A stretch of 64,000 bases of DNA from Syntrophotalea acetylenica (GTDB lineage: Bacteria; Desulfobacterota; Desulfuromonadia; Desulfuromonadales; Syntrophotaleaceae), in the NCBI RefSeq assembly GCF_001888165.1, contig NZ_CP015455.1, forward strand, positions 862,001-926,000, written 5' to 3'. The position numbers and the translations under genes are program-made. Positions within the stretch are counted from its first letter, which is position 1; each line of letters begins with the position of its first letter. This document shows, in pieces, positions 404-36,521 of the stretch. The notes beneath the pieces were generated by a model. It worked only from the letters and a program-made list of their open reading frames with translations. It searched no databases and was not told the origin of the DNA.

Positions 404-1054
404 TCAGGCGAGGCGTCCGTCCTCCATGCGAATGATGGTGCTGTTGAGACGTTCCGGCTGATCCGGGGAGTGGGTGGCCTGGATGATGGTCATGCCCTGT
501 TCCACCAGCAGCGGCAGCAGTTTGTCGAAGGCTTCGATGCTGGCGCGGTCCATGTTGGAGGTTGGCTCGTCAAGCAGCAGCAGCCGGGGACGCAACACCA
601 GCGCCCGGGCGATGGCCACCCGCTGCTGTTCGCCGCCGGACAGTTCACGGGCGCTGCGCCGGCCGAACCCTTCCAGCCCGACCATTTCGAGGGCACCGTG
701 AATCAGGCGGTGCTGGTCCTTGCTGTTGGTGCCGCGCATTTTCAGCCCGTAAGCGATGTTGTGGTGCACAGAGCGGCTGAAAAGGTAGGGGGATTGGTGC
801 ACCAGGGTGATGTCCTGACGCAGCCGCAGCAGGTTTTTTTTCTTCCAGACCACCTTTTCGCCCTGGAAGACCATCTCTCCGAAGGTAGGTTTGAGCAACA
901 GCGCGACAATCTGCAGCAGGGTGCTTTTGCCGCAACCGTTGGAGCCTACCAGGGAATAGATTTTCCGGGACTCGAAACGGATTTCCTCGAGTTGCAGAGC
1001 CAGGTGGCTGTTGTAGCGTTTTTCGATGGCGTGCAGCGCTAAAAAAGGGGTCAC
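404..1054 (-). CDS. tupC: Tungstate-type ABC transporter ATP-binding protein (TupC-like)
   Basis: ATPase subunit (216 aa) of an oxyanion importer on the inner face of the membrane. Walker A GSNGCGKST is at residues 37-45, the ABC signature LSGGEQQ at 138-144 and Walker B LLLLDEP at 158-164. The GTG start at 1054 follows the permease stop codon by two bases, so the two are translationally coupled. Short ATPases paired with a 228-aa permease that begins near DFIFDSLKTAF are typical of the Tup tungstate system. The substrate-binding protein TupA is not beside them. Tungstate is favoured, but molybdate or another oxyanion cannot be excluded from these two subunits. Confidence 0.75.
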   Translation of the reverse strand: MTPFLALHAIEKRYNSHLALQLEEIRFESRKIYSLVGSNGCGKSTLLQIVALLLKPTFGEMVFQGEKVVWKKKNLLRLRQDITLVHQSPYLFSRSVHHNIAYGLKMRGTNSKDQHRLIHGALEMVGLEGFGRRSARELSGGEQQRVAIARALVLRPRLLLLDEPTSNMDRASIEAFDKLLPLLVEQGMTIIQATHSPDQPERLNSTIIRMEDGRLA

Positions 1055-1056
1055 GG

Positions 1057-1743
1057 TTACCTCTGTTGCAGGAAGTTCAGAAACATGTTGATAAGCAGGG
1101 CGACCGACAACAGGAAGATGCCGAGGGCCAGGCCGAAGGCGAATTCCCCCTTGCTGGTTTCCAGCGCGATGGCGGTGGTCATGGTGCGGGTATAGCCGCG
1201 GATGTTGCCGCCCAGCATCATGGCGACTCCGACTTCGGCGATAATTCTTCCGAATCCGGCGATAATGGCGGCCATCACGCCGAAGCGGATCTCCTGCATC
1301 AACAGCAGGGCCCCGCGGCTGGTGCTGGCACCGAGGGTCAGGGCGGTCGGCATGATGCGGCTGTCCGAAGCGCTCAGTGCGCCGAGGGTATAGTTGGCGA
1401 TGATCGGCGTGGCCAGGATAATCTGCCCGACGACCATAGCTGTCGGGGTGAACAGCAGGCCGAACTGCCCCAGGGGGCCTGAACGGCTGAAAAATCCGTA
1501 CACCACCAGTCCGATAACGACCGTCGGCAGGGCCATGAGGGTATTGAGCAGGGTAATGACCGCGCGCCGGCCGGGAAACTGTCCAAGCCCGATGGCCATG
1601 CCGGCCGGAACGCCGGCGACGGTGGAGAACACGATGGCGATCAGGGACACGTACAGAGAGGTCCAGACCGTTTTGTAAACCTCGGGGTCCCATGAAAGGA
1701 TCAGTACAAAGGCTGTTTTGAGCGAATCGAATATGAAATCCAC
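1057..1743 (-). CDS. tupB: Tungstate-type ABC transporter permease (TupB-like)
   Basis: Inner-membrane permease of 228 aa with about five hydrophobic helices and the binding-protein-dependent permease domain; the EAA loop that contacts the ATPase lies around 'LTLGASTSRGALLLM'. The GTG start at 1743 was chosen because GGAG precedes it by six to seven bases and the protein then begins VDFIFDSLKTAF, as in TupB proteins. It forms an operon with the ATPase downstream. No periplasmic tungstate-binding protein precedes it; upstream is a divergent ADP-ribosylglycohydrolase gene. The receptor must therefore be encoded elsewhere, or has been lost. Confidence 0.75.
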   Translation of the reverse strand: MDFIFDSLKTAFVLILSWDPEVYKTVWTSLYVSLIAIVFSTVAGVPAGMAIGLGQFPGRRAVITLLNTLMALPTVVIGLVVYGFFSRSGPLGQFGLLFTPTAMVVGQIILATPIIANYTLGALSASDSRIMPTALTLGASTSRGALLLMQEIRFGVMAAIIAGFGRIIAEVGVAMMLGGNIRGYTRTMTTAIALETSKGEFAFGLALGIFLLSVALLINMFLNFLQQR

Positions 1744-1993
1744 AGCAAGCTCCGTAATGCCTGGCGTTTTGCGATCGCCAGAGAGAATGTCCGCCGTCAA
1801 GGTCGTTGCGATGAGCGCAGGGGGATAACGGGCGGATATGCGATTTGTTGTGGATTATATAGCGTTGCCCGGGGATTTGCCAAGACCTTTGAACAATCAC
1901 CCGAGGTTTGTCTCCCCGTCGATGCACGGGGCGTCGCTTCGGCCGTGTTATAATTGATCGAGGTGCAGGTGGATTTGTGCGGGAGGTGCGGCT

Positions 1994-6497: not shown

Positions 6498-7116
6498 GGA
6501 ACCTCCAGTCGCGAACGGCGTGCTTGCATGGCAAGGAATTGCTGTGTTCATTCTGCCGCAAACAAGGCCTGGGCTCAATAGGAAATGAACGTTATTTTGA
6601 GAGCAGTCAAACATTTTGGAGCCCGCAATGCTGTTGAATGTGTTTGCTCTGGCCATCGGGCGGGCATGTGGCGTGGAGGCGTCTGAATGTATACGACTTT
6701 TCAGGCCGCTGAAACGGTGTCTTTGGCGTCTTCGGGCTGCTGTCGCTTGCTGTTTTGTTAAGGTTTGTCCGATAAGTTGTGAGGTGTATTGTCCGTCGGA
6801 GGGCGCGAATTATCTTGCGCCCGGCGGGTGATCAAAATTGTGGTTGCGGTTTAAGGTATTGAAAAAACGTGGCAGTCGTGGGTTTTGGTGGTTTATGGAG
6901 AAGAGCGGTGCGTGAAAGGTTCTTTGCAAAAAATGTTTTGTTGTGGTTAGGTTTTTACTCTTGACAACAAAAACGAACATCATTTACATTGATTTCGAAC
7001 ACAACAGTTCATTCTTTTGAGCGCCTGGCCCCGCCGGCCGGAGAGGATGGGCTTCTGGTTGAGAGTGTCTAACCACGGTTGCTAACCTTTTACACCCAAA
7101 ATAACGGAGGTTGATC
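6498..7116. other. Intergenic region upstream of cutC
   Basis: About 620 bp between the TPR gene and cutC. No supported gene is seen. The last 160 bp hold the cutC promoter/operator (annotated separately) and a long 5' leader ending in the ACGGAGG ribosome-binding site. Confidence 0.6.
6961..7015 (+). promoter_or_regulatory. cutC promoter with putative DeoR-type operator
   Basis: A -35 box TTGACA at 6961-6966 and a -10-like TACATT with 18-bp spacing. The spacer contains AACGAACAT, and further CGAACA and GTTCA half-sites follow up to 7011. The first 20 bases are identical but for one base to the promoter at 13891, upstream of the transporter gene. DeoR-family repressors such as GlpR recognise CGAACA-type half-sites, so the cluster's own DeoR protein probably binds here. 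Transcription would start near 6997, leaving a 120-base leader. Confidence 0.65.
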
Positions 7117-9543
7117 ATGGCAGGAACCTGTTGTGGGGGAATGGCTGAAGGCGCCACCCGTAAAAAGTACGAACTTCCCGAACGGATTCAGCGTCTCAAG
7201 GATGCCTACCTGCAAGTAAAACCCAGCATTGCCGTCGGTCGCGCCCTGGCTTTTACGGAAATCACCCGACAGAACCCGGGCCTGCCGAACATTCTGCGTC
7301 GCGCCCTGGCGTTCAAGAAGGCCTGCGAGGATGCGCCGCTGCTGATCCAGGACGACGAGCTGATCGTCGGGCATCCCTGCGGCAAACCTCGTGCCGGTGC
7401 CTTTTCCCCGGATATCGCCTGGAAATGGGTGCGCGACGAACTCGACAGCATCGGTACCCGTTCGCAGGATCCTTTCGAGGTCAGCGATGAAGACAAAAAA
7501 ATCATGCGTGAGCAGATCTTCCCTTTCTGGGAAGGCAAGTCCCTCGATGAAGTCTGTGAAACCCAGTATCGCGAAGCGGGACTGTGGGAATTTGCCGCCG
7601 AGGCGTTCGTCAGCGATCTGTCCTACCATCAGGTAAACGGCGGCGGCGACACCTGCCCCGGTTTCGACGTGATCCTGTTCACCAAGGGAGTAAGCGGCAT
7701 CAAGGCCGAGGCCGAAGCCAACCTGGCGACGCTGTCCATGGACGTGCCGGAAGACATCGACAGGATTTATTTCTACAAAGCCGCCATTCATACCTGCGAT
7801 GGTATCATCACCTACGCCAGTCGTCTCTCCGCCTACGCCAGCGAACTTGCGGGCAAGGAGCAGAATCCCGGGCGCAAGGCCGAACTCGAAAAGATTGCCG
7901 AGGTCAACGCCCGCGTGCCGGCCAATCCCCCGCGGACCTTCCAGGAAGCCCTGCAGTCGATCTGGACCATCGAGTCGCTGTTTGTCATCGAGGAAAACCA
8001 GACCGGTCTGTCTCTTGGCCGTCTCGACCAGTACGTCTATCCCTGCTACGAAGCGGATGTCAAAGCCGGTAAACTCGAAGAAACCGAGGCCTTTGAACTG
8101 CTGAGCTGCTTCATTATCAAGTGCGCCGAAATGATGTGGCTGACCAGCGAACTGGCCGCCAAGTATTTCGCCGGCTACCAGCCTTTCATCAATCTGTGCG
8201 TCGGCGGCCAGAAACGCGAAGGCGGCGACGCTACCAACGATTTGACCTATCTGGTGATGGACGTGGTGCGCAAGCTTGGCGTGTATCAGCCGTCTCTGGC
8301 CTGCCGCATCCACAACCAGTCGCCGCACAAGTATCTGCAGAAGATCGTGGAAGTGGTCAAGGCGGGTCTGGGCTTCCCCGCCTGCCATTTCGACGATGCC
8401 CATATCAAGATGATGCTGCGCAAGGGCTACGATTTCGAAGACGCCCGCGATTATTGCCTGATGGGCTGCGTCGAGCCACAGAAATCGGGCCGTATCTATC
8501 AGTGGACCTCCACCGGCTATACCCAGTGGCCGGTCGCCATCGAGTTTGTTCTGAATCGCGGCGTGATGAAGTGGCACGGCACCAGGCAGGGCCTCGATAC
8601 CGGCGATCTGGATCAGTTCGCCACCTACGAGCAGTTTGACGCTGCCGTCAAGAAGCAGATCGAATATATCTGCAAGCTGTCGGCTATCGGTACCGTCATC
8701 AGCCAGCGCGTGCACCGGGACGTGGCGCCCAAGCCTCTGATGTCCCTGTTTGTGGAAGGCTGCATGGAGACCGGCAAGGATGTGACCGCCGGCGGCGCTG
8801 TCCTCAACCATGGTCCCGGCCTGATTTTTTCCGGCCTGGCCACCTATACCGACTCCATGGCCGCCATCAAGAAGCTTGTCTTCGACGACAGGAAATACAC
8901 CCTGTCCGATTTCCAGAAGGCCCTTGACGCCAACTGGGAAGGCTACGAGCAGATGCGCCAGGATTGCCTGAGCGCACCCAAGTACGGCAACGATGACGAC
9001 TACGCTGACAGGATCGCCGCCGACCTGGTCGAATACACCGAGAAGGCCTGCCGTCAGTTCAAGATGCTGTATTCCACCATGAGCCACGGGACCCTGTCGA
9101 TTTCCAACAACACCCCCATCGGCGAAATCACCGGTGCCACCGCCGACGGCCGCCTGGCCTTCACGCCGCTGTCCGACGGCATCAGCCCGGTGCAGGGCGC
9201 CGACAAAAAAGGCCCCACCGCCATCATCAAGTCGGTCAGCAAGATGAATGTGGAATCGATGAATATCGGCATGGTGCACAACTTCAAGCTGATGGAAGGC
9301 GTCCTGGAGACCCCCGAAGGCGAGGCCGGCCTGATCACTTTGCTGCGCACCGCCTCCATTCTGGGCAACGGCCAGATGCAGTTCAGCTATGTCGACAACG
9401 AAACCCTGAAGCAGGCTCAGCAGAACCCGGAAGAATATCGCGACCTGATGATCCGCGTAGCGGGATACAGTGCCTTCTTCGTGGAACTCTGCAAGGAAGT
9501 GCAGGACGAAATCATCAGCCGCACCACGCTGCAGGGGTTTTAG
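7117..9543 (+). CDS. cutC: Choline trimethylamine-lyase (glycyl radical enzyme)
   Basis: An 808-aa glycyl radical enzyme that cleaves choline to trimethylamine and acetaldehyde. Catalytic and binding residues reported for Desulfovibrio CutC appear at a constant offset of 38: Tyr170, Asp178, Phe357, Cys451 and Glu453 (motif GCVEPQ), Thr464, Tyr468, and radical Gly783 in RVAGYSAFF, corresponding to Tyr208, Asp216, Phe395, Cys489, Glu491, Thr502, Tyr506 and Gly821 there. The ATG at 7117 follows GGAGG by seven bases. It is the short CutC form without a microcompartment-targeting extension, and no shell genes lie nearby. The activator cutD is 6 kb downstream. Related lyases (isethionate lyase, diol dehydratase) are less likely given the residue set. 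Confidence 0.92.
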
Positions 9544-9550
9544 GCGGGCC

Positions 9551-9573
9551 GCCATCCGGAGTTTCCGGATGGC
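9551..9573 (+). terminator. Hairpin after cutC
   Basis: GCCATCCGGA and TCCGGATGGC pair perfectly around a GTT loop. No T-run follows, so it may act as an mRNA 3' stabiliser or partial terminator. The same CCATCCGGA-GTT-TCCGGATGG hairpin forms the right end of both 181-bp repeats. Confidence 0.5.
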
Positions 9574-9591
9574 GACCAGGTAAGAAGATTC

Positions 9592-9618
9592 CCGGCGGGC
9601 CGGCATATGGCCCGCCGG
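9592..9618 (+). terminator. Second hairpin after cutC
   Basis: A 10-bp GC-only stem, CCGGCGGGCC/GGCCCGCCGG, with the loop GGCATAT, placed 50 bp after the cutC stop codon. It lacks a strong T-tract, so termination is likely but not certain. It would let cutC mRNA accumulate above the porin mRNA. Confidence 0.5.
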
Positions 9619-9873
9619 AGGGTTGCCGAAAAACCTGTCACGGAAGATAGTGATGAAAATTTGAACTTTACAGCGTTGAGTCTCTGGGTGGCACGGTTTT
9701 TCAAATGTAATTTATGGTGTTATGCCGCAATGCATCAGGAAGGAATGGCGTTTGCGTGTCTTGATGGTGTTGCACGATCGGCAGGTTAACTCGCATTTGA
9801 ACTTGGCAGTCGCTGGCGGATTGTGGCGCGCCGGCGCACTGGGCGAGAAAATACTCGATGGAGGAACAAGGCA

Positions 9874-11265
9874 ATGAGCAAAGCAAGGTGGATTAAAAGT
9901 CTGCTGCTCGGACTGCTGGCCGCGGGCGTCGGATTCGGCGCGGCGCCGGCCGGTGCGGAAATCTACGCAATCGACTACAATGGCTTTCATGCCGGCGCCG
10001 GCTTGAGTGCCGCCATGGGCACCTTTCACACCAACAATTCCAATTTCGGGGCTGGCGGCGTCAAGAACGGCGACAAGGATAACAGCTGGTTTGAAGTCTA
10101 TATCATGCCCAGCCTCAACATGTCCTACGACACCGGAAAATTCGGTACCTTTTACGGCGAGTTTTCCTATGTCGGCACCCAGACCTTCGGCGGTATCGAT
10201 CCCGCCGGTTTCTCACAGACCTTCGGCGGCAGCGAAAACCCCGGCGACTGGGAATCCGAATTGTTCTATGCCGGTTGGAAATCCGGCAACCTGATCCCCG
10301 GCCTGCCTGAAAACGTCATCGACATCAGTTTCGGTGAGCAGGTGTTTTCCGTCGGCGACGGTTTTCTGATCGCCGACGGCGAATTCGACGGCGCCAAAGG
10401 CTGTTACTGGATCGCGCCCCACAAATCCTTCCGCGAGACCGCCATCCTCAAAGTCAACACCGAACCGGTGCGGGCCGATTTCTTCTATCTGAAGGCCGAC
10501 AAGGATTATGCCGATACCGAACTGTACGGGGTGAATGTCGAGTACATCAAGGACGGTTTCGGCACCCTCGGTGCTTCCTGGATGACCATCACCGACGCCA
10601 ATGCCTTCTATGAAGACGGCGTGACCGAGAACTTCTATGCCAACCGCGATGGCATGGATGTCTGGAGCGTGCGTTTTCAGGGGAATCCGTTGACCGCCTG
10701 GGGCCTCGAAGAACTCTTCCTGTCCGGCGAATACGCCGACCAGGCCGGCGGTGACCGGGCCGACGTCGATGCTTACGGTTACTATGTCGAGGCGGGCTGG
10801 ACCTTCGGCAACCTGCCCTGGACGCCGACCTTGAGCTATCGGTACGCGTTTTTCTCCGGCGACGATGCCGATACCTCCGATTACGAATCCTTCGATCCTC
10901 TGTTTTACGGTTTTCTGCGCGGCTGGGGCACCCATTTCATGGGCGAGGTGGTTGGCGAATATCATCTGTTCAACAGCAACCAGCAGATCCAGATGGTGCA
11001 TCTGAACCTGGTTCCGACCGATAAGCTCTCCGTCGGCGCCATCTACTACAACTTCAAGCTCGACAAAAACAACATTTTCGGCACGCCGGTGACCAGCGAC
11101 GAGTATGCCGACGAAATCAATCTGTACGCCGATTATGCCCTCAACGACAACGTCTGGCTCAGTGGCGTGTTCGGCTGCGCGTTCCCCGGCGAAGCCGCGG
11201 AGCAGTACTGGGGCGACGATCAGGCCATGATGGTGGTTGAAGCCTATGTAACCTTCACTTTCTGA
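9874..11265 (+). CDS. Outer membrane porin
   Basis: A 463-aa exported protein. Residues 1-31 form a signal peptide (basic MSKARWIK, hydrophobic core, cleavage after GAPAGA-like sequence before EIYA). The mature part shows alternating aromatic beta strands with many Y/F/W and acidic turns and ends VTFTF with a terminal Phe, the mark of BAM-assembled outer-membrane barrels. The ATG at 9874 follows GAGGAAC. It lies between cutC and the kinase/regulator genes, so it probably admits choline or other quaternary amines; that substrate is inferred from context only. A strong terminator follows. Confidence 0.8.
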   Translation: MSKARWIKSLLLGLLAAGVGFGAAPAGAEIYAIDYNGFHAGAGLSAAMGTFHTNNSNFGAGGVKNGDKDNSWFEVYIMPSLNMSYDTGKFGTFYGEFSYVGTQTFGGIDPAGFSQTFGGSENPGDWESELFYAGWKSGNLIPGLPENVIDISFGEQVFSVGDGFLIADGEFDGAKGCYWIAPHKSFRETAILKVNTEPVRADFFYLKADKDYADTELYGVNVEYIKDGFGTLGASWMTITDANAFYEDGVTENFYANRDGMDVWSVRFQGNPLTAWGLEELFLSGEYADQAGGDRADVDAYGYYVEAGWTFGNLPWTPTLSYRYAFFSGDDADTSDYESFDPLFYGFLRGWGTHFMGEVVGEYHLFNSNQQIQMVHLNLVPTDKLSVGAIYYNFKLDKNNIFGTPVTSDEYADEINLYADYALNDNVWLSGVFGCAFPGEAAEQYWGDDQAMMVVEAYVTFTF

Positions 11266-11306
11266 CCCTGACGTGGCTGTCATGGCCGCAGGGCAATTCT
11301 CTTACG

Positions 11307-11347
11307 GGCTCCCCGCTCGGGCCGATCGGCTTGCGGGGAGCCTTTTT
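11307..11347 (+). terminator. Rho-independent terminator after the porin gene
   Basis: GGCTCCCCGC and GCGGGGAGCC form a perfect 10-bp stem around a 16-base loop, followed by five T. It closes the cutC-porin transcription unit. Confidence 0.85.
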
Positions 11348-11442
11348 GCGAAATGTGTACGAGACAGGGATTGCCGTTGAGGCATGGTTTGATGGATGGG
11401 GTTTGCCGGTATGTGCCGTCGGCAGGAGGCGGGCAGGGAGGG

Positions 11443-12627
11443 TCAGGCCAGGGCCTTGCGCAGCATGTTCTCGACGCGGCCGCGGTTATGCTCGAGCCAG
11501 CGTACCAGTCGGACATTGTGCTTCAGGTAAAACAGATATTCCTGGTCCGGACAGTTCTCCCGCTCAAGGTAGTAGGCTTCAACGGTGGCCCAGCGGATCA
11601 GGCTCAGGGCGGCGGCGGTCAGCAGGGGGGAGAATGTTTCGATCTCTTCGCGGTTTAGTGGCCCTGGCGCGGGCCACTGCGCGGCGCGTTTCTGATAAGC
11701 CCGCAGGAACAGATCCGCCTTGCGCAGCCACAGGTTGCCATCCATCTTTTTTTCCCAGCAGCAGCAGAAATAGATAACCGCCAGTGCCACATCGAACAGG
11801 CGAAAATCGTAACAGGCGCGGTCGAAATCGAACACGCCGATCACCCGGTTGAGATTGTATTTCTGGTTCCCCGGGTGAAAATCACCATGAATACCCATGA
11901 TCGGCAGGTTTGAAGCCGCAACCAGACGGTTGTGGATTTTTTCCGCGACCGCTGCCATGTCTTCGAGGTTTTTAAGGAAGTAGCGGTCGAAGCAACTCTG
12001 CCGCGTCTGTTCGGCACAGTGTGCAAACTCGACCGGCAGGGTGACGAGGCGTTCGCTGATGGGTCGGTGCATCGATGTCAGCTCCCCCGGATCGAAGCCG
12101 GCGGCACATCGATGCAACTCGGCGAGCATGCGGCCCGAGTAGATGTATTCTTCCCTGCTCAGGTGGTTGCAGGTCCAGGAATATTTGTCCTCGCCGCCGA
12201 TAAACGCGAACATCGCGTACAAAAGCTCTCCGCTGCTGTTGGGATTGGGAATCGGGCGCCGGACGAAATTGGCGCCGTCTCTGGTGCGGATCAGGGCGGC
12301 CACCATGTGGCCGCCGCGGTCGACGATATGCTCCACCAGGGAATGTTCGAAGCAGATATGCTCGATGGGGGTTCCCTGGCGGTAAATGCGCAAGAAGTAT
12401 TTTTGAAAACCGCCGGCAGTGCGGGTGATGACCTTGAAACTCAGGTTGGTATAGCCCCCGTACAGCTGCACGATGTCCTGGAGTTCGCCGATATCGTAGC
12501 AGTCCCTGGCTACCCGCGCGGCCTGTTCGGCCATCAGCCTGCAGGAAAGCTGGGTCGGGTAGGAAAAATCCGGCACCGTGGAAACCTGGTGCCGTTTTCT
12601 TTGCATCAGAGGACCCCCGCCGGGCAT
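11443..12627 (-). CDS. APH/choline-kinase family phosphotransferase
   Basis: A 394-aa cytoplasmic kinase of the aminoglycoside phosphotransferase/choline kinase/ThrB2 fold. The catalytic loop HGDFHPGN is at residues 247-254 and the metal-binding DFD at 267-269; the nucleotide lobe 'YGGYTNLSFKV' is near residue 56. The ATG at 12627 abuts the stop codon of the DeoR gene, so both are cotranscribed; a second ATG at 12606 is also possible. Within a choline cluster the likely substrate is choline, ethanolamine or a related amino alcohol, as for LicA, but homoserine-type substrates cannot be excluded by sequence. Confidence 0.75.
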   Translation of the reverse strand: MPGGGPLMQRKRHQVSTVPDFSYPTQLSCRLMAEQAARVARDCYDIGELQDIVQLYGGYTNLSFKVITRTAGGFQKYFLRIYRQGTPIEHICFEHSLVEHIVDRGGHMVAALIRTRDGANFVRRPIPNPNSSGELLYAMFAFIGGEDKYSWTCNHLSREEYIYSGRMLAELHRCAAGFDPGELTSMHRPISERLVTLPVEFAHCAEQTRQSCFDRYFLKNLEDMAAVAEKIHNRLVAASNLPIMGIHGDFHPGNQKYNLNRVIGVFDFDRACYDFRLFDVALAVIYFCCCWEKKMDGNLWLRKADLFLRAYQKRAAQWPAPGPLNREEIETFSPLLTAAALSLIRWATVEAYYLERENCPDQEYLFYLKHNVRLVRWLEHNRGRVENMLRKALA

Positions 12628-13455
12628 TTAATCCGCCACCAGGACGCGAATGCCGAGGGCCTTGAGGTCTCGCAGGTATTCCTCGGGCAGCTTGTGATCG
12701 ACAATCAGCAGATCGACTTTGTCGATGGGGGCGACGACAAGGTCCGCCACCCTGCCGAAAGAATTGTGTGTCGCGAGCACGATGACCTGTCCCCGTGTCT
12801 GCTGGATCATGGCTCGTTCCAGTGCGGCTTCGGTGAAGGACGGTGTGGTGATGCCGTCCCGAAAGCTGATGCCGTCGGGGATCAGAAAGGTCTTTTTGGG
12901 GTGCAGTTCCTGTAGCGTTTCCATGGTCAGCGGACCTTCCATGGAGTGTGTCTCGGGACGATACTCACCGCCCAGCAGGATCAGTTCGGCCCGTTTGCCC
13001 TTGACCTCCTGGATGGCGCCGACATTGTTGGTGTAGACACGCACCGGGATTTCCGGGTCGAGGTGGCGCAGGACGTAGAGCGCGGTGGTGCCCGAGTGCA
13101 GCAGCAGCGTGTCATGGGGTTCGATCAGGGAGGCGGCCTTGCGACCGATCTGGTCCTTGATGTCGGGCAGTTCCTTGAGCCGGGTCTCGTAGGGCTCTTC
13201 GTGGGTCATGCGCTCCTGCCGGTAAACCGCGCCACCGTAGGTCCGTTCGAGAAGGCCCTGCCGCTCAAGGGTTTCGAGGTCGCGACGGATGGTCATCTCT
13301 GAAACGCCCATCATGTCGCTCAATTCGGTGACCCGGATGGTCAGTCGTTCGCGCAGCAGGTTGCGGATGCGCATGTGCCGTTCGGCCGGAAGCAGTTGGT
13401 CGTTGCTGCCGGAAGCACTCTCGGATCTCGTGATTTTACCATTCTCTTCGAGCAT
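12628..13455 (-). CDS. DeoR-family transcriptional repressor
   Basis: A DNA-binding regulator of about 275 aa. The helix-turn-helix lies in 'RLTIRVTELSDMMGVSEMTIRRDL', followed by the DeoR-typical 'LERQGLLERTYGGA'. The C-terminal sugar-phosphate-isomerase-like sensor domain contains 'LLLHSGTTALYVLRHL' and VYTNN. The ATG at 13455 was selected as the first clear methionine, but its ribosome-binding site is distant, so the true start is uncertain. The gene is cotranscribed with the kinase. It probably represses the CGAACAT-containing promoters at 6961 and 13891. Its inducer may be a phosphorylated product of the kinase; this is inference. Confidence 0.85.
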   Translation of the reverse strand: MLEENGKITRSESASGSNDQLLPAERHMRIRNLLRERLTIRVTELSDMMGVSEMTIRRDLETLERQGLLERTYGGAVYRQERMTHEEPYETRLKELPDIKDQIGRKAASLIEPHDTLLLHSGTTALYVLRHLDPEIPVRVYTNNVGAIQEVKGKRAELILLGGEYRPETHSMEGPLTMETLQELHPKKTFLIPDGISFRDGITTPSFTEAALERAMIQQTRGQVIVLATHNSFGRVADLVVAPIDKVDLLIVDHKLPEEYLRDLKALGIRVLVAD

Positions 13456-14153
13456 CGCGTATTTGTTCGATCCTTTCTGTTTTTGTTCTTTTATAACATT
13501 TCCAACCGCTTCAGAGCAATGAAAGTTTTCTCTCCCAGAGACTTTCAACGGTGTTTTTCTTTTTCAACTCCCGGATTGCAACTGATCTGGAGTTTCAGGG
13601 GTGATTATTGCCCGCAAAATATCGGGGATGTGAGATGCGATGGTAGTTTTTCTGATAAAATATGAACGATTTGGTATGAAAGTGTACACCGTCTTAAAAG
13701 GGTTGGGCGCGTCGAAGATGTCCGTTTTCAGCTGTCGGGTTGTCTGGTTTGTTTTATTTAAGGCTTTCAAAAACAGGGCTTTACAAAAATATATTGAGCG
13801 CCGTGCCGGGCTCCCGGCAGGATGCCAATCCTTCAGATGGGAAGTGTGGAAGCGTGTTCTAAGATGCTTGGGTTGTGTCCGAAATAACACTTGACAACAT
13901 AAACGAACATGCCATACGATTCAGGTGTTCATATGAACGTTTCACCCATCCGGGTGCGACGGTCTTTTCAAAGCGTTGCGCCGTCGCCGGCTTCGGCACA
14001 AGGGTCGGTCCGTCGGGGTGTTCCGGATCCGTTGTCCGACGGTTGATGGTTTGAAAAGCTGCACGGTCGCACAAATGATTGCAATGCCCTTTGCCTGTGG
14101 CAGGGGTCACATCGGGGGCAGGACAAAACAACCATTTTATTGGAGACGGCATT
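13456..14153. other. Intergenic region between deoR-type gene and transporter gene
   Basis: About 700 bp separating divergent genes. The left part is AT-rich with a possible leftward -10 (TATAAA within ATGTTATAAAAG) for the repressor gene. The right part holds the transporter promoter/operator at 13891 and a leader of about 225 bases. No gene is supported. Confidence 0.5.
13891..13952 (+). promoter_or_regulatory. Transporter/cutD promoter with putative DeoR-type operator
   Basis: TTGACA at 13891-13896 and -10-like TACGAT with 18-bp spacing. The spacer carries AACGAACAT, and the perfect palindrome GTTCATATGAAC follows at about 13927. The first 20 bases match the cutC promoter at all but one position, indicating coordinated control of cutC and the transporter-cutD unit. 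Confidence 0.65.
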
Positions 14154-15185
14154 ATGGCTAACGGGGTGCAAACAGCAAGTATGGCCGGAACCCGCGTTTC
14201 GGCAAGGCAGGTTTTCGAACGAAAGGAATTGGGGTTTGTCAAACGCGGCCTGGCAACGGCCCTGGGCTCCGGCATGTTGTGGGGGCTGGACGGGGTTGTT
14301 CTCGGCATTGCGCTGGCCATGGCCCCTTTTACCGCCGGGGCCACCATGTATGCGGCCCCGCTGGCCGGGTCGGCTCTGCATGACGGCTTTGCCGGACTGT
14401 GGCTGGCTCTCTACAACCTGTTCACCGGGCGCTGGAAAGACATCGGCCGCTCTCTCAAGACCTTTCCCGGCTTCATTGTCTGTGTGGCCGCCCTGCTTGG
14501 CGGGCCTATCGGCATGGGCGCCTATCTGCTCGGCATCAACTTCGCCGGGGCCGCCTACGCCATGGGCATATCAGCCGGCTATCCGGTTGTCGGCGCGATT
14601 ATGGCGCGGCTGATTCTCAAGGAAAAGATCAGCCCCCGCGTGTGGTTCGGCATTCTCACCTGCGTCACCGGCGCGGTTATCCTCGGCTATGTTCCGCCCG
14701 AGGGCGGCACCATGCCCAACTTCTATCTCGGCATCGGCTGTTCCCTGCTGGCCGCTTTCGGCTGGGGTACGGAAGGCGTACTGGCTACCTTTGGCATGGA
14801 TATGGTTGATCCCGCCGTGGCCATCAATATCCGTGAAGCGACCTCCTGTGTCGTTTCCGTACTGGCGGTATTGCCCCTGGTCGCCGGACTGGCCATTTTC
14901 GGGCAGGCCCTGATCACGCCCAATGTTATCTGGGTCATCGCTCTGGCCGGCATGGCCGGCGGCTTTTCCTATCTGCTCTGGTACAAGGCTTTCAGCATGT
15001 GCGGTTGCAGTCGCTGCATGGCACTGAATATCACCTACGCTATCTGGGGTCTGGTATTTTCCTACTTCATGACCGATGTCGCGATTACCAGCAATCTGGT
15101 GGTTGGCGCGATCGTTATCACCATCGGCGCCATCCTGGTTGTCGGCAATCCCAAAGAAATGATCAACCTGCGGGCGGAGGCTTAA
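14154..15185 (+). CDS. DMT-superfamily (EamA/LicB-like) transporter
   Basis: A 343-aa inner-membrane protein with about ten hydrophobic helices arranged as two EamA repeats, typical of drug/metabolite transporters. The first repeat begins 'LGSGMLWGLDGVVLG'; the second includes 'LLAAFGWGTEGVLA'. The N-terminal 35 residues are hydrophilic. The ATG at 14154 follows GGAG. It leads the operon transporter - small protein - cutD and shares its promoter with cutC. LicB, a choline permease of other bacteria, belongs to the same superfamily, so choline uptake is the likely role. Substrate cannot be read from sequence alone. Confidence 0.75.
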   Translation: MANGVQTASMAGTRVSARQVFERKELGFVKRGLATALGSGMLWGLDGVVLGIALAMAPFTAGATMYAAPLAGSALHDGFAGLWLALYNLFTGRWKDIGRSLKTFPGFIVCVAALLGGPIGMGAYLLGINFAGAAYAMGISAGYPVVGAIMARLILKEKISPRVWFGILTCVTGAVILGYVPPEGGTMPNFYLGIGCSLLAAFGWGTEGVLATFGMDMVDPAVAINIREATSCVVSVLAVLPLVAGLAIFGQALITPNVIWVIALAGMAGGFSYLLWYKAFSMCGCSRCMALNITYAIWGLVFSYFMTDVAITSNLVVGAIVITIGAILVVGNPKEMINLRAEA

Positions 15186-15186
15186 C

Positions 15187-15471
15187 ATGGCAGCTGTACT
15201 TCCTATGCGATTCCGTATTCTTCACTTTTTCTCGACAGTGAAGGAGTCTTCGATCAAAGAACTGATGAACGCGTTGCGCTCCGAGTATGGTGCTGAAGGG
15301 CAGTTCAATGAAAATGTCATCGGCGAACACCTTCTTTCCATGAGGGCCGGCGGGTTGATCGAAACCCGGGATATCGAACTGGACCGGGACGGTAATCTGG
15401 TGGTGAACTATGCCATTACCGAATTCGGGCAGGGGCGTCTCAAATATCTGCCCAAAGCCTGGAAGGTCTGA
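15187..15471 (+). CDS. Small winged-helix-like protein of unknown function
   Basis: A 94-aa soluble protein starting two bases after the transporter stop codon, with GGAGG before the ATG, so it is cotranscribed. The pattern of a helix pair ('SIKELMNALRSEYG', 'ENVIGEHLLSMRAGGLIETRDI') followed by a hairpin ('LDRDGNLVVNYAITEFGQGRL') resembles a winged helix of the PadR/MarR type, where the 'AITEFGQ' turn forms the wing. It could be a small regulator or a protein partner of CutC/CutD. The fold is inferred from pattern only. Confidence 0.55.
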   Translation: MAAVLPMRFRILHFFSTVKESSIKELMNALRSEYGAEGQFNENVIGEHLLSMRAGGLIETRDIELDRDGNLVVNYAITEFGQGRLKYLPKAWKV

Positions 15472-15476
15472 TACGG

Positions 15477-15517
15477 CGCATCGTGGCCGCCCCTCAATTC
15501 GGGGCGGCCACGATGCG
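15477..15517 (+). terminator. 17-bp perfect hairpin between the small gene and cutD
   Basis: A 17-bp perfect stem (CGCATCGTGGCCGCCCC and its complement) around a TCAATTC loop. No T-tract follows. It may attenuate transcription, protect the upstream mRNA or separate cutD expression from the transporter. cutD starts 120 bp further on. Confidence 0.55.
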
Positions 15518-15639
15518 AACAAGCGGTACCCTGCCATGAGCGGTTTTTTCAGTCACGATTCACACAACCGAAAGGTTTTATCCGGTTTCCACCAGGGTTT
15601 TCCATCAGATGGGAACCCGCCGGCAACAGGAGTTGCACC

Positions 15640-16596
15640 ATGAGCGAACAGGGACAGTTGCAAGGCATGGTTTTCGATATTCAGAAATACTCCATGCATG
15701 ATGGGCCCGGTGTCAGGACCCTGGTGTTTCTCAAGGGGTGTCCGTTGCGCTGTAAGTGGTGTTCCAACCCTGAGAGTCTCGCCCCCGGTTTCCAGGTGAT
15801 GTGCCTGGCTGAACAGTGTGTATCCTGCGGCCGCTGCGTGGAGGTCTGCCCCGCGGGCGTTCACACCCTGGTCGCGGTCGATAATGGTCCGATGCAACAT
15901 CGGATCGACAGGCAGGCCGCCTGTACGGGCTGCGGCGCCTGTGTTGCGAGCTGCGGGGCCCGGGCGCTGCGTGTTGCCGGACGCGAGATGACGGTGGGGG
16001 AAGTTGTCGAGGTGGTCATGGAGGATCACTTCTTTTACATGACTTCCGGCGGCGGGGTGACCGTCGGTGGCGGCGAGCCCACCATGCAGCACGACTTTGC
16101 CGGCGCTATTTTGCGGGAGTGCCGGCGCAACGGCGTGCATACCGCGATGGAAACCTGCGGCCAGGCTGCGGCGGAGGTGTATCGCGAGCTGGCCGGCTGC
16201 ACCGATCTTTTCCTTTTCGACCTCAAGCACATCGATTCCGAACGACATCGGGCCTTTACAGGCGCCGGCAATGAGCGTATTCTTGCCAATCTGGGCATGT
16301 TGCTGGATATGGGCGCCAATGTCGTGGTGCGCATGCCCCTGATTGCCGGGGTGAACGACGACGTCGCAGCCTTGTCTGGTACACTGGACTGGCTGGTGCG
16401 GGCCGCGCAGGGTAAGGCCAATCTGAGGGGCGTCGAAGTTTTGCCCTACCATCGCCTCGGCGTCACCAAATACCGTCAACTCGATATGCAGTACCCCATG
16501 GGAGAGATGCCTGCCCATACCCCGGCACAGCTGGCGGAAGTCGATGCGATTCTCGCCCGGTACGATCTTCCCGTCCGGATTGTCAAGCATGGCTGA
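15640..16596 (+). CDS. cutD: Choline TMA-lyase activating enzyme (radical SAM)
   Basis: A 318-aa glycyl-radical-enzyme activase that abstracts a hydrogen from Gly783 of CutC using S-adenosylmethionine. The radical-SAM cluster cysteines are Cys34, Cys38 and Cys41 (CPLRCKWC). An inserted ferredoxin-like domain holds two more 4Fe-4S sites: Cys60/63/66/70 and Cys95/98/101/105. The GGEP SAM-binding motif appears as 'VTVGGGEPTMQ' near residue 147. It is the last gene of the transporter operon and 6 kb from cutC, whereas cutC and cutD are usually adjacent. Length and clusters fit GRE activases of the CutD type. Confidence 0.9.
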   Translation: MSEQGQLQGMVFDIQKYSMHDGPGVRTLVFLKGCPLRCKWCSNPESLAPGFQVMCLAEQCVSCGRCVEVCPAGVHTLVAVDNGPMQHRIDRQAACTGCGACVASCGARALRVAGREMTVGEVVEVVMEDHFFYMTSGGGVTVGGGEPTMQHDFAGAILRECRRNGVHTAMETCGQAAAEVYRELAGCTDLFLFDLKHIDSERHRAFTGAGNERILANLGMLLDMGANVVVRMPLIAGVNDDVAALSGTLDWLVRAAQGKANLRGVEVLPYHRLGVTKYRQLDMQYPMGEMPAHTPAQLAEVDAILARYDLPVRIVKHG

Positions 16597-25102: not shown

Positions 25103-27813
25103 ATGGGTAGTTATTTTTGGTACTGGGGCAAATCCTCCGATGATGGCAGATATCATCTGTTGCCATATCATTGTCTGGATGTGGCGGCGGTTGGGTGGCT
25201 GCTTCTTGCACCGGATAAGCCTGTGACGAAGTGGCTCTGTTCAAAATTAGGTGTCTCCGCTGAATGGCTTCGGCAGTGGTTCGTTTTTTGTCTGGCGCTG
25301 CATGACATCGGAAAATTCGCAACGGCTTTTCAGGGCCTCAAACCAAACTTGTCCGAGCATCTCGTCCCAGCCGTACAGGGCATGCCCTACAATGAGCGGC
25401 ATGACAGTTTGGGGTTTTTACTTTGGCAAAAAGTTGTAAAGCCTTTGGGGGCACTTTAGAGCCAGGACAGAAAATTGATATTTCCGCCAAGCAACTTCGT
25501 GCTTTTGAACCCTGGCTGAAGATCGTGACCGGCCACCATGGGATTCCCCCCAAAGAGGTTTTGAATCGCCATCAGGATTTTTTTACCGAGAATGACGAAC
25601 AAGCAGCGAAGAATTTTTTTCTAGGTGTTTCGCATCTTCTTCTGAACGACATCAATCTGGACATTTTGGCTAATAAACAGTTCAAGAAAAAACTGCAACA
25701 GTATTCGTGGGTTCTGGCCGGAATAACCGTCTTGGCAGATTGGCAGGGTTCCAGCCTGTTAGAGGACCAGTATCGTTCGGATGAAATCCCGTTGTCTGAA
25801 TACTGGTTTAAGAAGGCTTTGCCTCAGGCCAAACAGATCGCTGTCGCAGCGAATCTCACCCCGACTGCCTGCGCACCCTTTGCCGGCATTCACCATCTGT
25901 TTCCCTTCATTAAACAACCAACCCCTCTACAGGAGTGGTCGACTTCCGTTGACGTTAATGATCAGCCCCAGCTTTTTATATTTGAGGATGTAACCGGGGC
26001 GGGGAAAACCGAAGCGGCAATGACGTTGTGTCATCGTTTACTGGCCGCCGGTGCAGCGGACGGTGTTTATGCCGGATTGCCGACAATGGCGACGGCCAAT
26101 GCCATGTATCTTCGTCTGGGCAAGGCCTATAGACGTTTATTCGGCAGTGAGAAAAAGCCGTCATTGGTCTTGGCGCATGGCGCGCGGCATCTGTCGGATG
26201 CCTTTCGTGAATCCGTCGGCTTGCCGGACAACACAGGGGAAAATGGGGGCTACGCAAAAGGGGAGTCAAGCGGCGAAGCCTATTGTCACGCCTGGCTGGC
26301 AGACAGTCGTAAAAAGGCCCTGCTTGCTGAAGTCGGCGTAGGAACGCTTGACCAGGCCCTGTTGAGCATCCTGCCCGCAAGACACCAGTCCCTGCGTTTG
26401 CTGGGTCTTTCGCGAAAAATCCTGCTTGTTGATGAAGTTCATGCTTACGATCCCTATATGAACCTTTTGCTACAAACTCTTTTGCAGGCCCATGCGGCCA
26501 ACGGGGGTAGCGCCATCCTTCTTTCCGCGACTTTGCCCAACGCAATGCGGGAGGATTATGTCCAGGCCTTTTGTGCCGGTGTTGGCTGCGAGGCTCGCGT
26601 TCTGTCGGAAAACGCGGACTATCCCTTGGTAACGCACGTCGCACCGAATGTGTTTTCTGAGGTTGCGATTGAAACACGAAAGGAAGTTGCGCGTTCCACG
26701 GCAATTGACTGGTTGAAGAGCGAGCAGGAAGCTCTGGAACTTATTCGTGAACAGGTTGAACACGGCCGATGCGTCTGTTGGATACGCAACACGGTTGGCG
26801 ATGCCCGTACCGCGTTCGATGTGTTGTCCTGTTGCGAGTGGCTGAAAACAGAGCGGCTTTCATTGTTTCACAGCCGCTTTGCCATGATCGACAGACAACG
26901 CATTGAGAATGAAACCTTGGCCTTCTTTGGTAAAGACTCAGATGCGGAAATGCGTTGTGGCCGGGTGCTTGTCGCCACGCAGGTTGTCGAGCAATCCCTT
27001 GATTTGGATTTTGATGTGCTGATTTCCGATCTGGCCCCTATTGATTTGCTGATTCAGCGTGTTGGTCGCGAACATCGTCATATCCGGGATGAGGGCGGCA
27101 ACAGGAAGCGGGAAAAAGGGGCGACGGATCGGCGTGAACCACCCGTGTTTTACATCCTGGCACCCGAGCCGAGCGAGGCACCGGAAGAAACATGGCTGAA
27201 AGACGTTCTGCCGGGTACGCAAGCGGTTTATCGGCATGTCGGCCAGCTTTGGTTGACCCAACAGATTTTGCTGAAAGAACAGGTGATCGCGCCCATGAAC
27301 AATTCCAGAACCTTGATCGAGGAAGTTTTCGGGGAAGAGGCCCAGGATCACATTCCCGAAGCCTTGCGTGGTCTATCCTGGGAGGCGGAAGGGGATGCCG
27401 GCGGAAAACGCGGCATTGCCCGGTTGAACCGGCTGGATCTCTCCAAAGGTTATTCCCGGCGCAGCGCCGAAGATAGCGGCGGATGGGATGAAGATACCAA
27501 TATCCCCACCCGGCTTTCCGAACCGACGGTGGATGTCGCTCTGGTTGTTGAAATAAATGGACCCTTACAGCCCTATGCTCCGGTGAAAAGATACCCGTGG
27601 GATATGAGTATGCTCAGCCTGCCGAAAAGGGAATGGGAAGACGTGCGCAAAAGGATTCCACAACAATGGCAATCGCGTATCGATGAATTGCGCGAAAAGG
27701 AAAAAGCGCTTACCTGGGTCGAAGTGCTGCCGTTGGTTGATGGTTTATTGCCCTGTTACGACAAGGATAAAGGCTGGAGCCTGAACAAGGAGGTGAAACG
27801 TGAATCTGATTGA
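25103..27813 (+). pseudogene. cas3: Type I-E Cas3 nuclease-helicase, frameshifted
   Basis: The frames together would encode about 903 aa of the Cas3 effector that degrades targets marked by Cascade. The N-terminal part (25103-25459) carries the HD nuclease motif in 'CLALHDIGKFATAF' and 'RHDSLGFLLW', then stops. The remainder (to 27813) carries Walker A 'DVTGAGKTEAAM', the DEVH box 'LLVDEVHAYD', 'VLVATQVVEQSLDLDFD' and motif VI 'QRVGREHRH'. The break lies at the G run 25447-25451: one extra G would join '..VVKPLG' to 'GTLEPGQKIDIS'. It may be a true inactivating deletion, a slippage-variable tract or a base-calling error. The 3' end overlaps cas8e by 14 bp. Confidence 0.88.
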
Positions 27814-34589: not shown

Positions 34590-34661
34590 AATTTAAGCAA
34601 AATCGGTGGTGATTTTTTCTTGCAAGAAATAATCATATGATTTCTAGTAGATAAAGATAGT
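34590..34661 (+). promoter_or_regulatory. CRISPR leader
   Basis: A 72-bp AT-rich segment between cas2e and the first repeat, including GGTGGTGATTTTTTCTTGCA and ATATGATTTCTAGTAGATAAA. Its cas2-proximal place, the intact first repeat and the degenerate distal repeats mark it as the leader and integration side. A TTGCAA...ATAAAG pair may act as the array promoter. Confidence 0.7.
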
Positions 34662-36521
34662 CCGTTCCCCGCAGGCGCGGGGATGAACCGGCTGCTGGGC
34701 AAAAGGCTCTTCTGAATCGACACCGTTCCCCGCAGGCGCGGGGATGAACCGGTTTTCGCCGCGTCCACGGCCTCCGCATAGGTCCGTTCCCCGCAGGCGC
34801 GGGGATGAACCGAGGTTCGAGTGGCAACAGCCCATTAAGTACACCCGTTCCCCGCAGGCGCGGGGATGAACCGGTTTGCCACTTTAGTGGGTATTCCGAA
34901 ATAATCCGTTCCCCGCAGGCGCGGGGATGAACCGATAGCCAGTGATAAGACCATCATTGTCATCATCCGTTCCCCGCAGGCGCGGGGATGAACCGATATG
35001 ATCTTCTTCGCCGTTAACTATTGATCCCCGTTCCCCGCAGGCGCGGGGATGAACCGTTAACCACTGCATCCCCGTTGGGCAAAAACCGCCGTTCCCCGCA
35101 GGCGCGGGGATGAACCGCACGATTGGCGGGATAGGGAGTATTACAGGCCCCGTTCCCCGCAGGCGCGGGGATGAACCGTAGATGCAACGGTTCTCCGCGT
35201 TTGTCCCCGCCCCGTTCCCCGCAGGCGCGGGGATGAACCGACATTGTTCGTTGGGCATTAAAGCGTGGTAGGCCGTTCCCCGCAGGCGCGGGGATGAACC
35301 GCGGGGTGATTCCGGTAAATTGGGAGGTGTCGACCGTTCCCCGCAGGCGCGGGGATGAACCGGCCGGGGCATGGCACGAAGGCGTGAGATTAAACCGTTC
35401 CCCGCAGGCGCGGGGATGAACCGTGAGGTAACTGTGCAGCTGCTAAATTGCACCACCGTTCCCCGCAGGCGCGGGGATGAACCGGTGCCTGATGCAGATC
35501 AACGTTGAGATCCCTGCCGTTCCCCGCAGGCGCGGGGATGAACCGTTGCCCCGGAAGGCTTTCGCGCCGAAATAGCTCCGTTCCCCGCAGGCGCGGGGAT
35601 GAACCGGAGGATGAGCGGCATGCAGCATACCAAGCCAGCCGTTCCCCGCAGGCGCGGGGATGAACCGCTGTGGCGCACAATACGGCCTGTGCGTGGTTTC
35701 CGTTCCCCGCAGGCGCGGGGATGAACCGGAACAGGGGTATCGGTACGTCTATGCCGCTGACCGTTCCCCGCAGGCGCGGGGATGAACCGCCTGCTGTAGT
35801 TTATACATTTTCGGCCCACATCCGTTCCCCGCAGGCGCGGGGATGAACCGCAGCCCACGAAACCGCGCTGGCCGAACATGCTCCGTTCCCCGCAGGCGCG
35901 GGGATGAACCGACAACGCCCGTTTAACCAGTCCGGTTGATTTACCGTTCCCCGCAGGCGCGGGGATGAACCGCGAGCGGTAAAAAAGGTGGGGCTGGCGG
36001 GGAGCCGTTCCCCGCAGGCGCGGGGATGAACCGCCTTTCGCAGTATGCAGAACGTCGCCAGCGATCCGTTCCCCGCAGGCGCGGGGATGAACCGCCGTTG
36101 CTGTAATAGGTGGTGTTGGCGGCGTGCCGTTCCCCGCAGGCGCGGGGATGAACCGCACCTGAGACAGCACCGGCAAATGAGCCCGCGCCGTTCCCCGCAG
36201 GCGCGGGGATGAACCGCCACACCTTGCCGCCTTGCGTCGCGGCCTGCTCCGTTCCCCGCAGGCGCGGGGATGAACCGGTCTTGACCCGCGTGCCCCACAC
36301 GCCGACCACCCGTTCCCCGCAGGCGCGGGGATGAACCGTATTTTGGCTGGCGCGGCCTGAAAATTTGGTGCCGTTCCCCGCAGGCGCGGGGATGAACCGA
36401 ATCGCTAAACCTTGCAAAAAACGGCTGGCACCCGTCCCCCGCATGCGCGGGGATGAACCGCCGGTGTGTCGCGAGAGGACGCAGAGCAAGCGCCGTTCCC
36501 CGCAGGCGCGGGGATGAAGCG
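34662..36521 (+). CRISPR. Type I-E CRISPR array, 31 repeats and 30 spacers
   Basis: Repeats are 29 bp, beginning CCGTTCCCCGC and ending GGGGATGAACCG with a CCCCGC-AGGC-GCGGGG hairpin, as in other I-E systems. The period is 61 bp. Twenty-nine spacers are 32 bp; the ninth (35179-35211) is 33 bp. Orientation matches transcription on the plus strand from the leader. The first 29 repeats look identical. Repeat 30 (36432-36460) has two changes (CCGTCCCCC and GCATGC), and repeat 31 (36493-36521) ends GAAGCG, as expected at the old end. No spacer was seen to match another part of this window by eye. Confidence 0.98.

Follow-up and report, generated by a model that had tools for sequence, protein, structure and literature searches.

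A 64,000-nt stretch of DNA from Syntrophotalea acetylenica, a relative of Pelobacter, was analysed (C1:862001-926000 of the host genome G000; hereafter the window, meaning this whole stretch). The host genome comprises 3.2 Mb in two contigs and is 99.99% complete. Seven genes at positions 7117 to 16596 of the window form a cluster that begins with cutC and ends with cutD, encoding choline trimethylamine-lyase and its activating enzyme. Between them lie genes for a beta-barrel protein, a kinase, a DeoR-family regulator, a transporter and a small winged-helix-like protein. The cluster stands in a genome in which searches for microcompartment shell proteins gave no match.

The cutC and cutD genes

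The cutC gene (7117..9543, plus strand) encodes a glycyl radical enzyme of 808 residues, read from the ATG at 7117. The protein scored 1572 bits against TIGR04394 (choline_CutC), the curated equivalog cut-off of which is 1050 bits. The initial annotation had recognised the enzyme by the active-site residues of Desulfovibrio CutC, the radical glycine included, at a constant offset of 38. With the Desulfovibrio numbering taken to be Y208, D216, F395, C489, E491, T502, Y506 and G821, all eight choline-site and radical residues were found in the window CutC at this offset. Among PDB structures, 5a0u from Klebsiella (1434 bits) matched better than 5fau from Desulfovibrio (1254 bits). The nearest named relatives were CutC proteins of 'Pelobacter sp.' metagenome-assembled genomes (91-92%).

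The cutD gene (15640..16596, plus strand) encodes a CutC-activating radical S-adenosylmethionine (SAM) enzyme of 318 residues with a ferredoxin-like insert. It passed the activase model TIGR04395 (406 bits, cut-off 360), and the radical-SAM motif CPLRCKWC and two four-cysteine ferredoxin motifs were present in the sequence, as the initial annotation had described. The end of cutC and the start of cutD are 6.1 kb apart, and the kinase and DeoR genes between them are on the minus strand; the spacing of about 6 kb with two divergent genes was thus reported correctly.

Trees were calculated from a set of 84 CutC rows, with 46 rows in a quick tree and 28 in a careful tree. They are unrooted, and no direction of shell gain or loss can be read from them. 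The window protein was placed among CutC and not outside it, in agreement with the curated model. In the careful tree it grouped with the CutC of its genus (100/99) and then with nine rows having a short N-terminus (88/86). The clade of short-N-terminus proteins comprises ten rows in the quick tree, all ten of which carry Y506F (L016, L007, L013, L012, L014, L011, L077, L067, L020 and L015). Six of the Y506F genomes or contigs also have a second, ordinary CutC row (L078, L074, L013_2, L075, L073 and L015_4), and the Y506F clade possibly acts on another substrate.

Only one CutC over the cut-off was found in G000; three other glycyl radical enzymes scored 516-628 bits against the cut-off of 1050. 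The possibility of another cut locus outside the window was rejected on this basis.

Shell genes and the N-terminus of CutC

Microcompartment shells are usually explained as a protection from acetaldehyde. The initial annotation described a cut cluster without genes for shell proteins or for aldehyde or alcohol dehydrogenases. This was borne out in the window, and for shell genes the absence extended to the whole genome. PF00936 and PF03319 each gave 0 matches in G000, the E. coli and Synechococcus controls being positive, and a shell profile built for this analysis found no homologue within the window. Shell genes elsewhere in G000 were therefore rejected, and neither shell proteins nor a second functional cut locus, both of which could have overturned the description, were found in the genome. 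Beside cutC there was no dehydrogenase: none of the 7 aldehyde-dehydrogenase, 12 iron-containing alcohol dehydrogenase and 7 AOR matches of G000 falls in the window.

When 136 genomes of the host's order were screened against the TIGR04394 cut-off (1050 bits), six had CutC, and none of the six had PF00936 or PF03319. G028, which belongs to this order and is contaminated, holds a CutC-like N-terminal fragment together with two PF00936 matches, and the order-wide picture should be read with this caution. Comparison of 79 CutC-related loci with our own profile showed shell genes near cutC in 68 and none in 11, some of the latter being short contigs. PF00936 was present in 45 of the 61 genomes examined, among which 50 of the 79 loci are represented. 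The shell-gene scan also took in L146 and L147, and L153-L155 were scanned for homologues of the kinase, the transporter and the winged-helix-like protein.

Outside the order, CutC occurs in Pectobacterium (L008 and L009) and in Desulfovibrio sp. OH1186 (L065) with an adjacent CutD and with neither PF00936 nor PF03319 in the genome. These are separate cases, with CutC of other clades and with other neighbours. The Pectobacterium cut genes (L008:9917-13438 and L009:9866-13412) have two small-multidrug-resistance genes as neighbours in L008, and in OH1186 (L065:9471-13402) a GcvH-like gene lies directly ahead of cutC and cutD. In the sister row from Erwinia (L006) there is a long N-terminal domain (room for 343 residues), which the Pectobacterium CutC does not have.

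The central point, cutCD of Pelobacter without nearby microcompartment genes, is already in print, and so is the growth of Pelobacter strains on choline with release of trimethylamine (PMC3543383, PMC6200775); the gain of the present analysis is detail and testability. PMC6200775 (2018) states that Pelobacter species can form trimethylamine from choline and that no microcompartment genes are apparent near their cutC/D, and its table lists Pelobacter species as confirmed choline degraders. According to PMC6331629, cutC was found in 13C-choline-labelled Pelobacter bins and is syntenic with Pelobacter acetylenicus and Pelobacter (Syntrophotalea) carbinolicus; between the cutC/cutD genes of these two species and those of the window we found no essential difference. 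PMC6620236 reports 21 gut genomes in which CutC is not associated with a Cut microcompartment. Our additions are the genome-wide absence of shell genes, the absent N-terminal extension, the LicB assignment and the shared operator. For Pelobacter, no statement on either of the points last found here, the absent extension and the operator, was met in the cited literature, and no search was aimed at them.

The offset of 38 is best read as the absence of an N-terminal targeting extension. In the window, an in-frame stop lies 26 codons ahead of an anchor residue, and CutC can start at most 24 residues before its conserved core. For 67 shell-linked CutC frames, the median distance from the upstream-most start to the anchor was 63 residues; for the 14 frames that have no shell genes nearby it was 31.5 (Mann-Whitney p 4e-6, uncorrected for kinship). 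Three of the 84 frames, truncated or at a contig edge, were dropped from this survey. According to PMC6325248, a short N-terminal extension of CutC is a feature that unites GRM1 loci and is a predicted encapsulation peptide. Since the window CutC does not have the extension carried by shell-associated CutC, it would not be addressed to a compartment.

The cluster shares CutC, CutD and the pair of a LicB-like transporter and a winged-helix protein with Type I/GRM1 cut loci. Unlike them, it has neither shell genes nor a neighbouring aldehyde or alcohol dehydrogenase, its CutC is without the extension, and DeoR, kinase and porin genes are added. The Type II.a/GRM2 loci of Klebsiella and Proteus provide the closest CutC core in the PDB (5a0u); in contrast to them, the window has no shell genes and its CutC does not have the N-terminal domain of about 330 residues. 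PMC6971018 reports that in Klebsiella the aldehyde dehydrogenase CutF depends on this long domain for co-migration, and that encapsulation of CutC does not require it.

The neighbouring genes and their proposed roles in transport and regulation

The initial annotation presented the neighbours of cutC as foreign to cut clusters. This was not the case for two of them. The EamA/DMT-family transporter gene (14154..15185, plus strand) was compared by a profile of four orthologues, for which LicB (7b0k/7paf) was the sole PDB match at E <= 1 (E 7e-26, 94 bits), and LicB was earlier linked to choline utilisation in PMC6620236. From this match we infer that the transporter is probably a choline importer. 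The gene directly downstream (15187..15471, plus strand) encodes a winged-helix-like protein of 94 residues, which had no match in Pfam or NCBIfam. Both genes were present in 57 of the 68 shell-bearing cut loci, and in 43 of the 47 where the stretch covered at least 22 kb. Because the pair accompanies most shell-bearing loci, the transporter and the 94-residue protein are ordinary cut genes. A second pair of a LicB-like transporter and a winged-helix protein lies at G000:C1:2420713-2422371 (L152).

The kinase, DeoR and porin genes are local additions to the cut gene set. A probable porin of the Alginate_exp family, an outer-membrane beta-barrel (9871..11265, plus strand; PF13372 44.9 bits, cut-off 25.2), is kept beside cutC in five relatives. 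The kinase gene (11446..12627, minus strand) encodes a protein of the APH/choline-kinase fold, which scored 78.9 bits against the APH family PF01636 and 20 bits against Choline_kinase (PF01633), below the gathering score of 29. The catalytic motifs HGDxHPGN and FDFDR were invariant in five orthologues. In a fold search with a model of moderate quality (five rows; predicted local distance difference test score, pLDDT, 74.5), N-acetylhexosamine kinase, YtaA and homoserine kinase came first, choline kinase ranked 12 and aminopropanol kinase 13. Choline is proposed as the substrate. The kinase gene was absent from all 68 shell-bearing loci; among the 11 loci without local shell genes it occurred in 2, and otherwise only in the window and the relatives compared with it. 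It was thus found in Desulfuromonadales clusters only. The DeoR-family regulator (12628..13548, minus strand; PF00455 and PF08220) has an orthologue (E <= 1e-40) in each of the six CutC-bearing genomes of the order, and in 0 of 4 family members without CutC.

All seven genes follow one another as in the window in G113 (a complete genome of the same genus), in G114 (= L002) and in L010 (= G032). They are split over contigs in G115 (= L001), with cutC and the porin gene on one and the DeoR and winged-helix genes on another; G122 holds the cutC, porin, kinase and DeoR genes and a contig end. Between G113 and the window, CutC is 93% identical, and the kinase and CutD are the most divergent proteins (68%).

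A near-identical predicted promoter/operator precedes both plus-strand units, as judged from nucleotide motifs. Two copies of the 20-bp element TTGACAACAWAAACGAACAT are present in the window, one ahead of cutC (6961) and one ahead of the transporter gene (13891). At cutC, a -35-like TTGACA (6961-6966) is separated by an 18-bp spacer from a -10-like TACATT (6985-6990), the predicted promoter thus covering 6961..6990 of the plus strand, and operator-like CGAACA sequences stand at 6974 and 6996, 22 bp apart. The predicted promoter of the unit of transporter, winged-helix gene and cutD (13891..13920, plus strand) has TTGACA at 13891-13896 and a -10-like TACGAT at 13915-13920, with CGAACA at 13904 and TGTTCA at 13926. 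We take the CGAACA half-site to resemble that of GlpR-type DeoR regulators.

In 100 shuffles the element had no match even with 3 mismatches. Ten genomes gave 21 matches to it (<=3 mismatches), with at least one in nine of the ten, and 4 to a reversed control. It is conserved upstream of cutC in relatives, several of which are identical at 20/20 positions, and a third copy in G000 (1 mismatch) lies ahead of the paralogous pair of L152. CGAACA followed 22 bp on by CGAACA or TGTTCA was found at the same promoter position in 8 of 12 upstream regions; the pair was absent in three regions of L141 and in a contig-edge region of G122.

Whether DeoR is the sole reader of this operator is doubtful, given the genome G116 (84% complete). 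There the element (1 mismatch) lies close to a winged-helix paralogue, and neither CutC over the cut-off nor a DeoR orthologue is present. The 94-residue protein therefore stays a candidate regulator.

Probable choline cleavage in the cytosol and competing explanations

The initial annotation expected acetaldehyde to enter the cytoplasm freely, or to be dealt with by genes elsewhere. Release into the cytosol would indeed be expected, and genes that could handle the product are present elsewhere in G000. Of its seven PF00171 aldehyde-dehydrogenase matches, which include L082, three (L083, L084 and L086) are probably best described, by model matches, as stand-alone acetylating acetaldehyde dehydrogenases; the others include ProA (L085), a CoA-acylating protein of the MMSDH type (L081) and another aldehyde dehydrogenase (L080). 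There are 11 iron-containing alcohol dehydrogenase matches over the cut-off. The seven AOR matches probably represent six genes, one of them broken, and L129 matches PDB 1aor at 420 bits. Two EutB-type ethanolamine lyases (L148 and L149) are encoded at G000:C1:2912637-2922760; with no shell genes in the genome, the use of ethanolamine is probably shell-free as well.

Genes of an ABC transporter were also seen in the window at 404-1800 (minus strand), with a TupB-like permease (208 bits, below the cut-off of 320). Tungstate uptake is a possible function, and would suit AOR enzymes.

The cluster is very probably a complete, regulated choline-utilisation operon group, in which cytosolic cleavage feeds general acetaldehyde metabolism. 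Choline would cross the outer membrane through the porin and the inner membrane through the LicB-like transporter. CutD would place the glycyl radical on CutC, which would split choline in the cytosol into trimethylamine and acetaldehyde. We infer that the acetaldehyde enters the general pool of Pelobacter-type bacteria, where it may be reduced to ethanol by NADH-dependent iron-containing alcohol dehydrogenases, oxidised in a CoA-dependent manner to acetyl-CoA and ATP, or oxidised to acetate by AOR-type enzymes. Both cutC and the unit of transporter, winged-helix gene and cutD would be switched on jointly through the shared promoter/operator, by DeoR or by the 94-residue protein, and the kinase may produce a phosphorylated signal for DeoR. 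PMC3543383 describes that P. carbinolicus strains convert choline to trimethylamine and acetaldehyde, the latter being disproportionated to ethanol and acetate, and PMC4275255 describes axenic growth of P. carbinolicus and P. acetylenicus on acetaldehyde alone. Choline can probably be cleaved without a shell because the whole metabolism already runs on acetaldehyde.

Several observations weigh against this account. A short N-terminus also occurs in four of the 67 shell-linked CutC (L011, L012, L016 and L020), and three of the 14 without local shell genes could start at least 45 residues upstream (L007, L009 and L140). L083, L084 and L086 match the AdhE and EutH models only below the curated cut-offs, and one alcohol dehydrogenase match has an internal stop. 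L134 and L135 are overlapping AOR pieces in different frames (G000:C1:2935371-2936371), near the ethanolamine-lyase genes, and are probably one broken gene. The porin and kinase genes of G122 are separated by other genes over about 3.5 kb. The CutC of L010 (9929-12415) and L140 (7643-10261) stand apart in the tree and have Y208I and a much altered sequence on either side of it, their gene neighbourhoods being otherwise equal; these two clusters may not be choline clusters, and perhaps serve a choline analogue. The grouping of all six syntenic proteins (CutC of the window, G113, L001, L002, L010 and L140) in a single clade was rejected by the approximately unbiased test (p 0.007, 28 of the 84 rows). 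We therefore do not claim that the operon and cutC travelled as one unit.

The altered pockets of L010 and L140, together with Y506F in the sister clade of ten, raise the question of whether the window enzyme also acts on a choline analogue and not on choline. Its pocket, however, has every residue checked, and the listing of Pelobacter species as confirmed choline degraders mentioned above argues for choline itself; we regard an analogue as highly improbable. We give hardly any credence to the explanation that the cluster is a decaying remnant, a former shell-bearing cut locus that has lost its shell and dehydrogenase genes and is losing the rest. Most CutC relatives are shell-linked (68 of the 79 loci), and the enzymes and regulators stand in two units 6 kb apart, which speaks for such a remnant. 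All reading frames are nevertheless intact, gene order is kept across genera, the promoter element is fully identical in several relatives, and the regulator is kept wherever the order has CutC (6/6).

A further alternative follows from PMC3543383, in which Pcar_0937 and its activase Pcar_0943 were proposed for 1,2-ethanediol and a duplicated eutBC for choline. The glycyl radical enzyme would then be a 1,2-ethanediol dehydratase, and choline would be cleaved by a second enzyme resembling ethanolamine ammonia-lyase. G000 likewise has two EutB matches, and the locus tags 0937-0943 number seven, equal to the seven genes here, which are presumably orthologous. The TIGR04394 score of 1572 bits (cut-off 1050), the choline-site residues, all of them present, and the LicB-like transporter in the cluster argue against ethanediol. 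In addition, PMC6331629 treats the Pelobacter gene as cutC, in its 13C-choline-labelled bins, and PMC3543383 dates from December 2012 and, in the sections available, does not use the name CutC. We therefore consider the ethanediol assignment unlikely in the extreme, if somewhat less so than the two explanations above. What the P. carbinolicus genome paper proposed as the gene for 1,2-ethanediol looks like a CutC gene; reassigning it would correct the annotation and leave ethanediol without its proposed enzyme.

With cytosolic cleavage of choline as the preferred explanation, this lineage, which would use choline and apparently also ethanolamine with no shell gene at all, would be a natural control for the idea that shells protect from acetaldehyde. 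Shell genes would also be unsuitable as a marker for counting choline degraders. A more specific proposal, which we put forward tentatively and hold to be rather unlikely in its entirety, is a distinct and self-contained cytosolic choline module, in which CutC has no extension and the kinase turns a small part of the choline into phosphocholine, which releases DeoR from the CGAACA pairs before cutC and the transporter gene. If true, this module and the shell-free ethanolamine lyases would together offer a natural way to test whether acetaldehyde calls for a metabolosome at all.

A search for RNA elements over the first 26 kb of the window gave none at Rfam gathering scores. The window also contains, at 25423-27813 and 34650-36500, a gene for a Cas3 helicase and a CRISPR array with about 31 repeats at a spacing of 61 bp.

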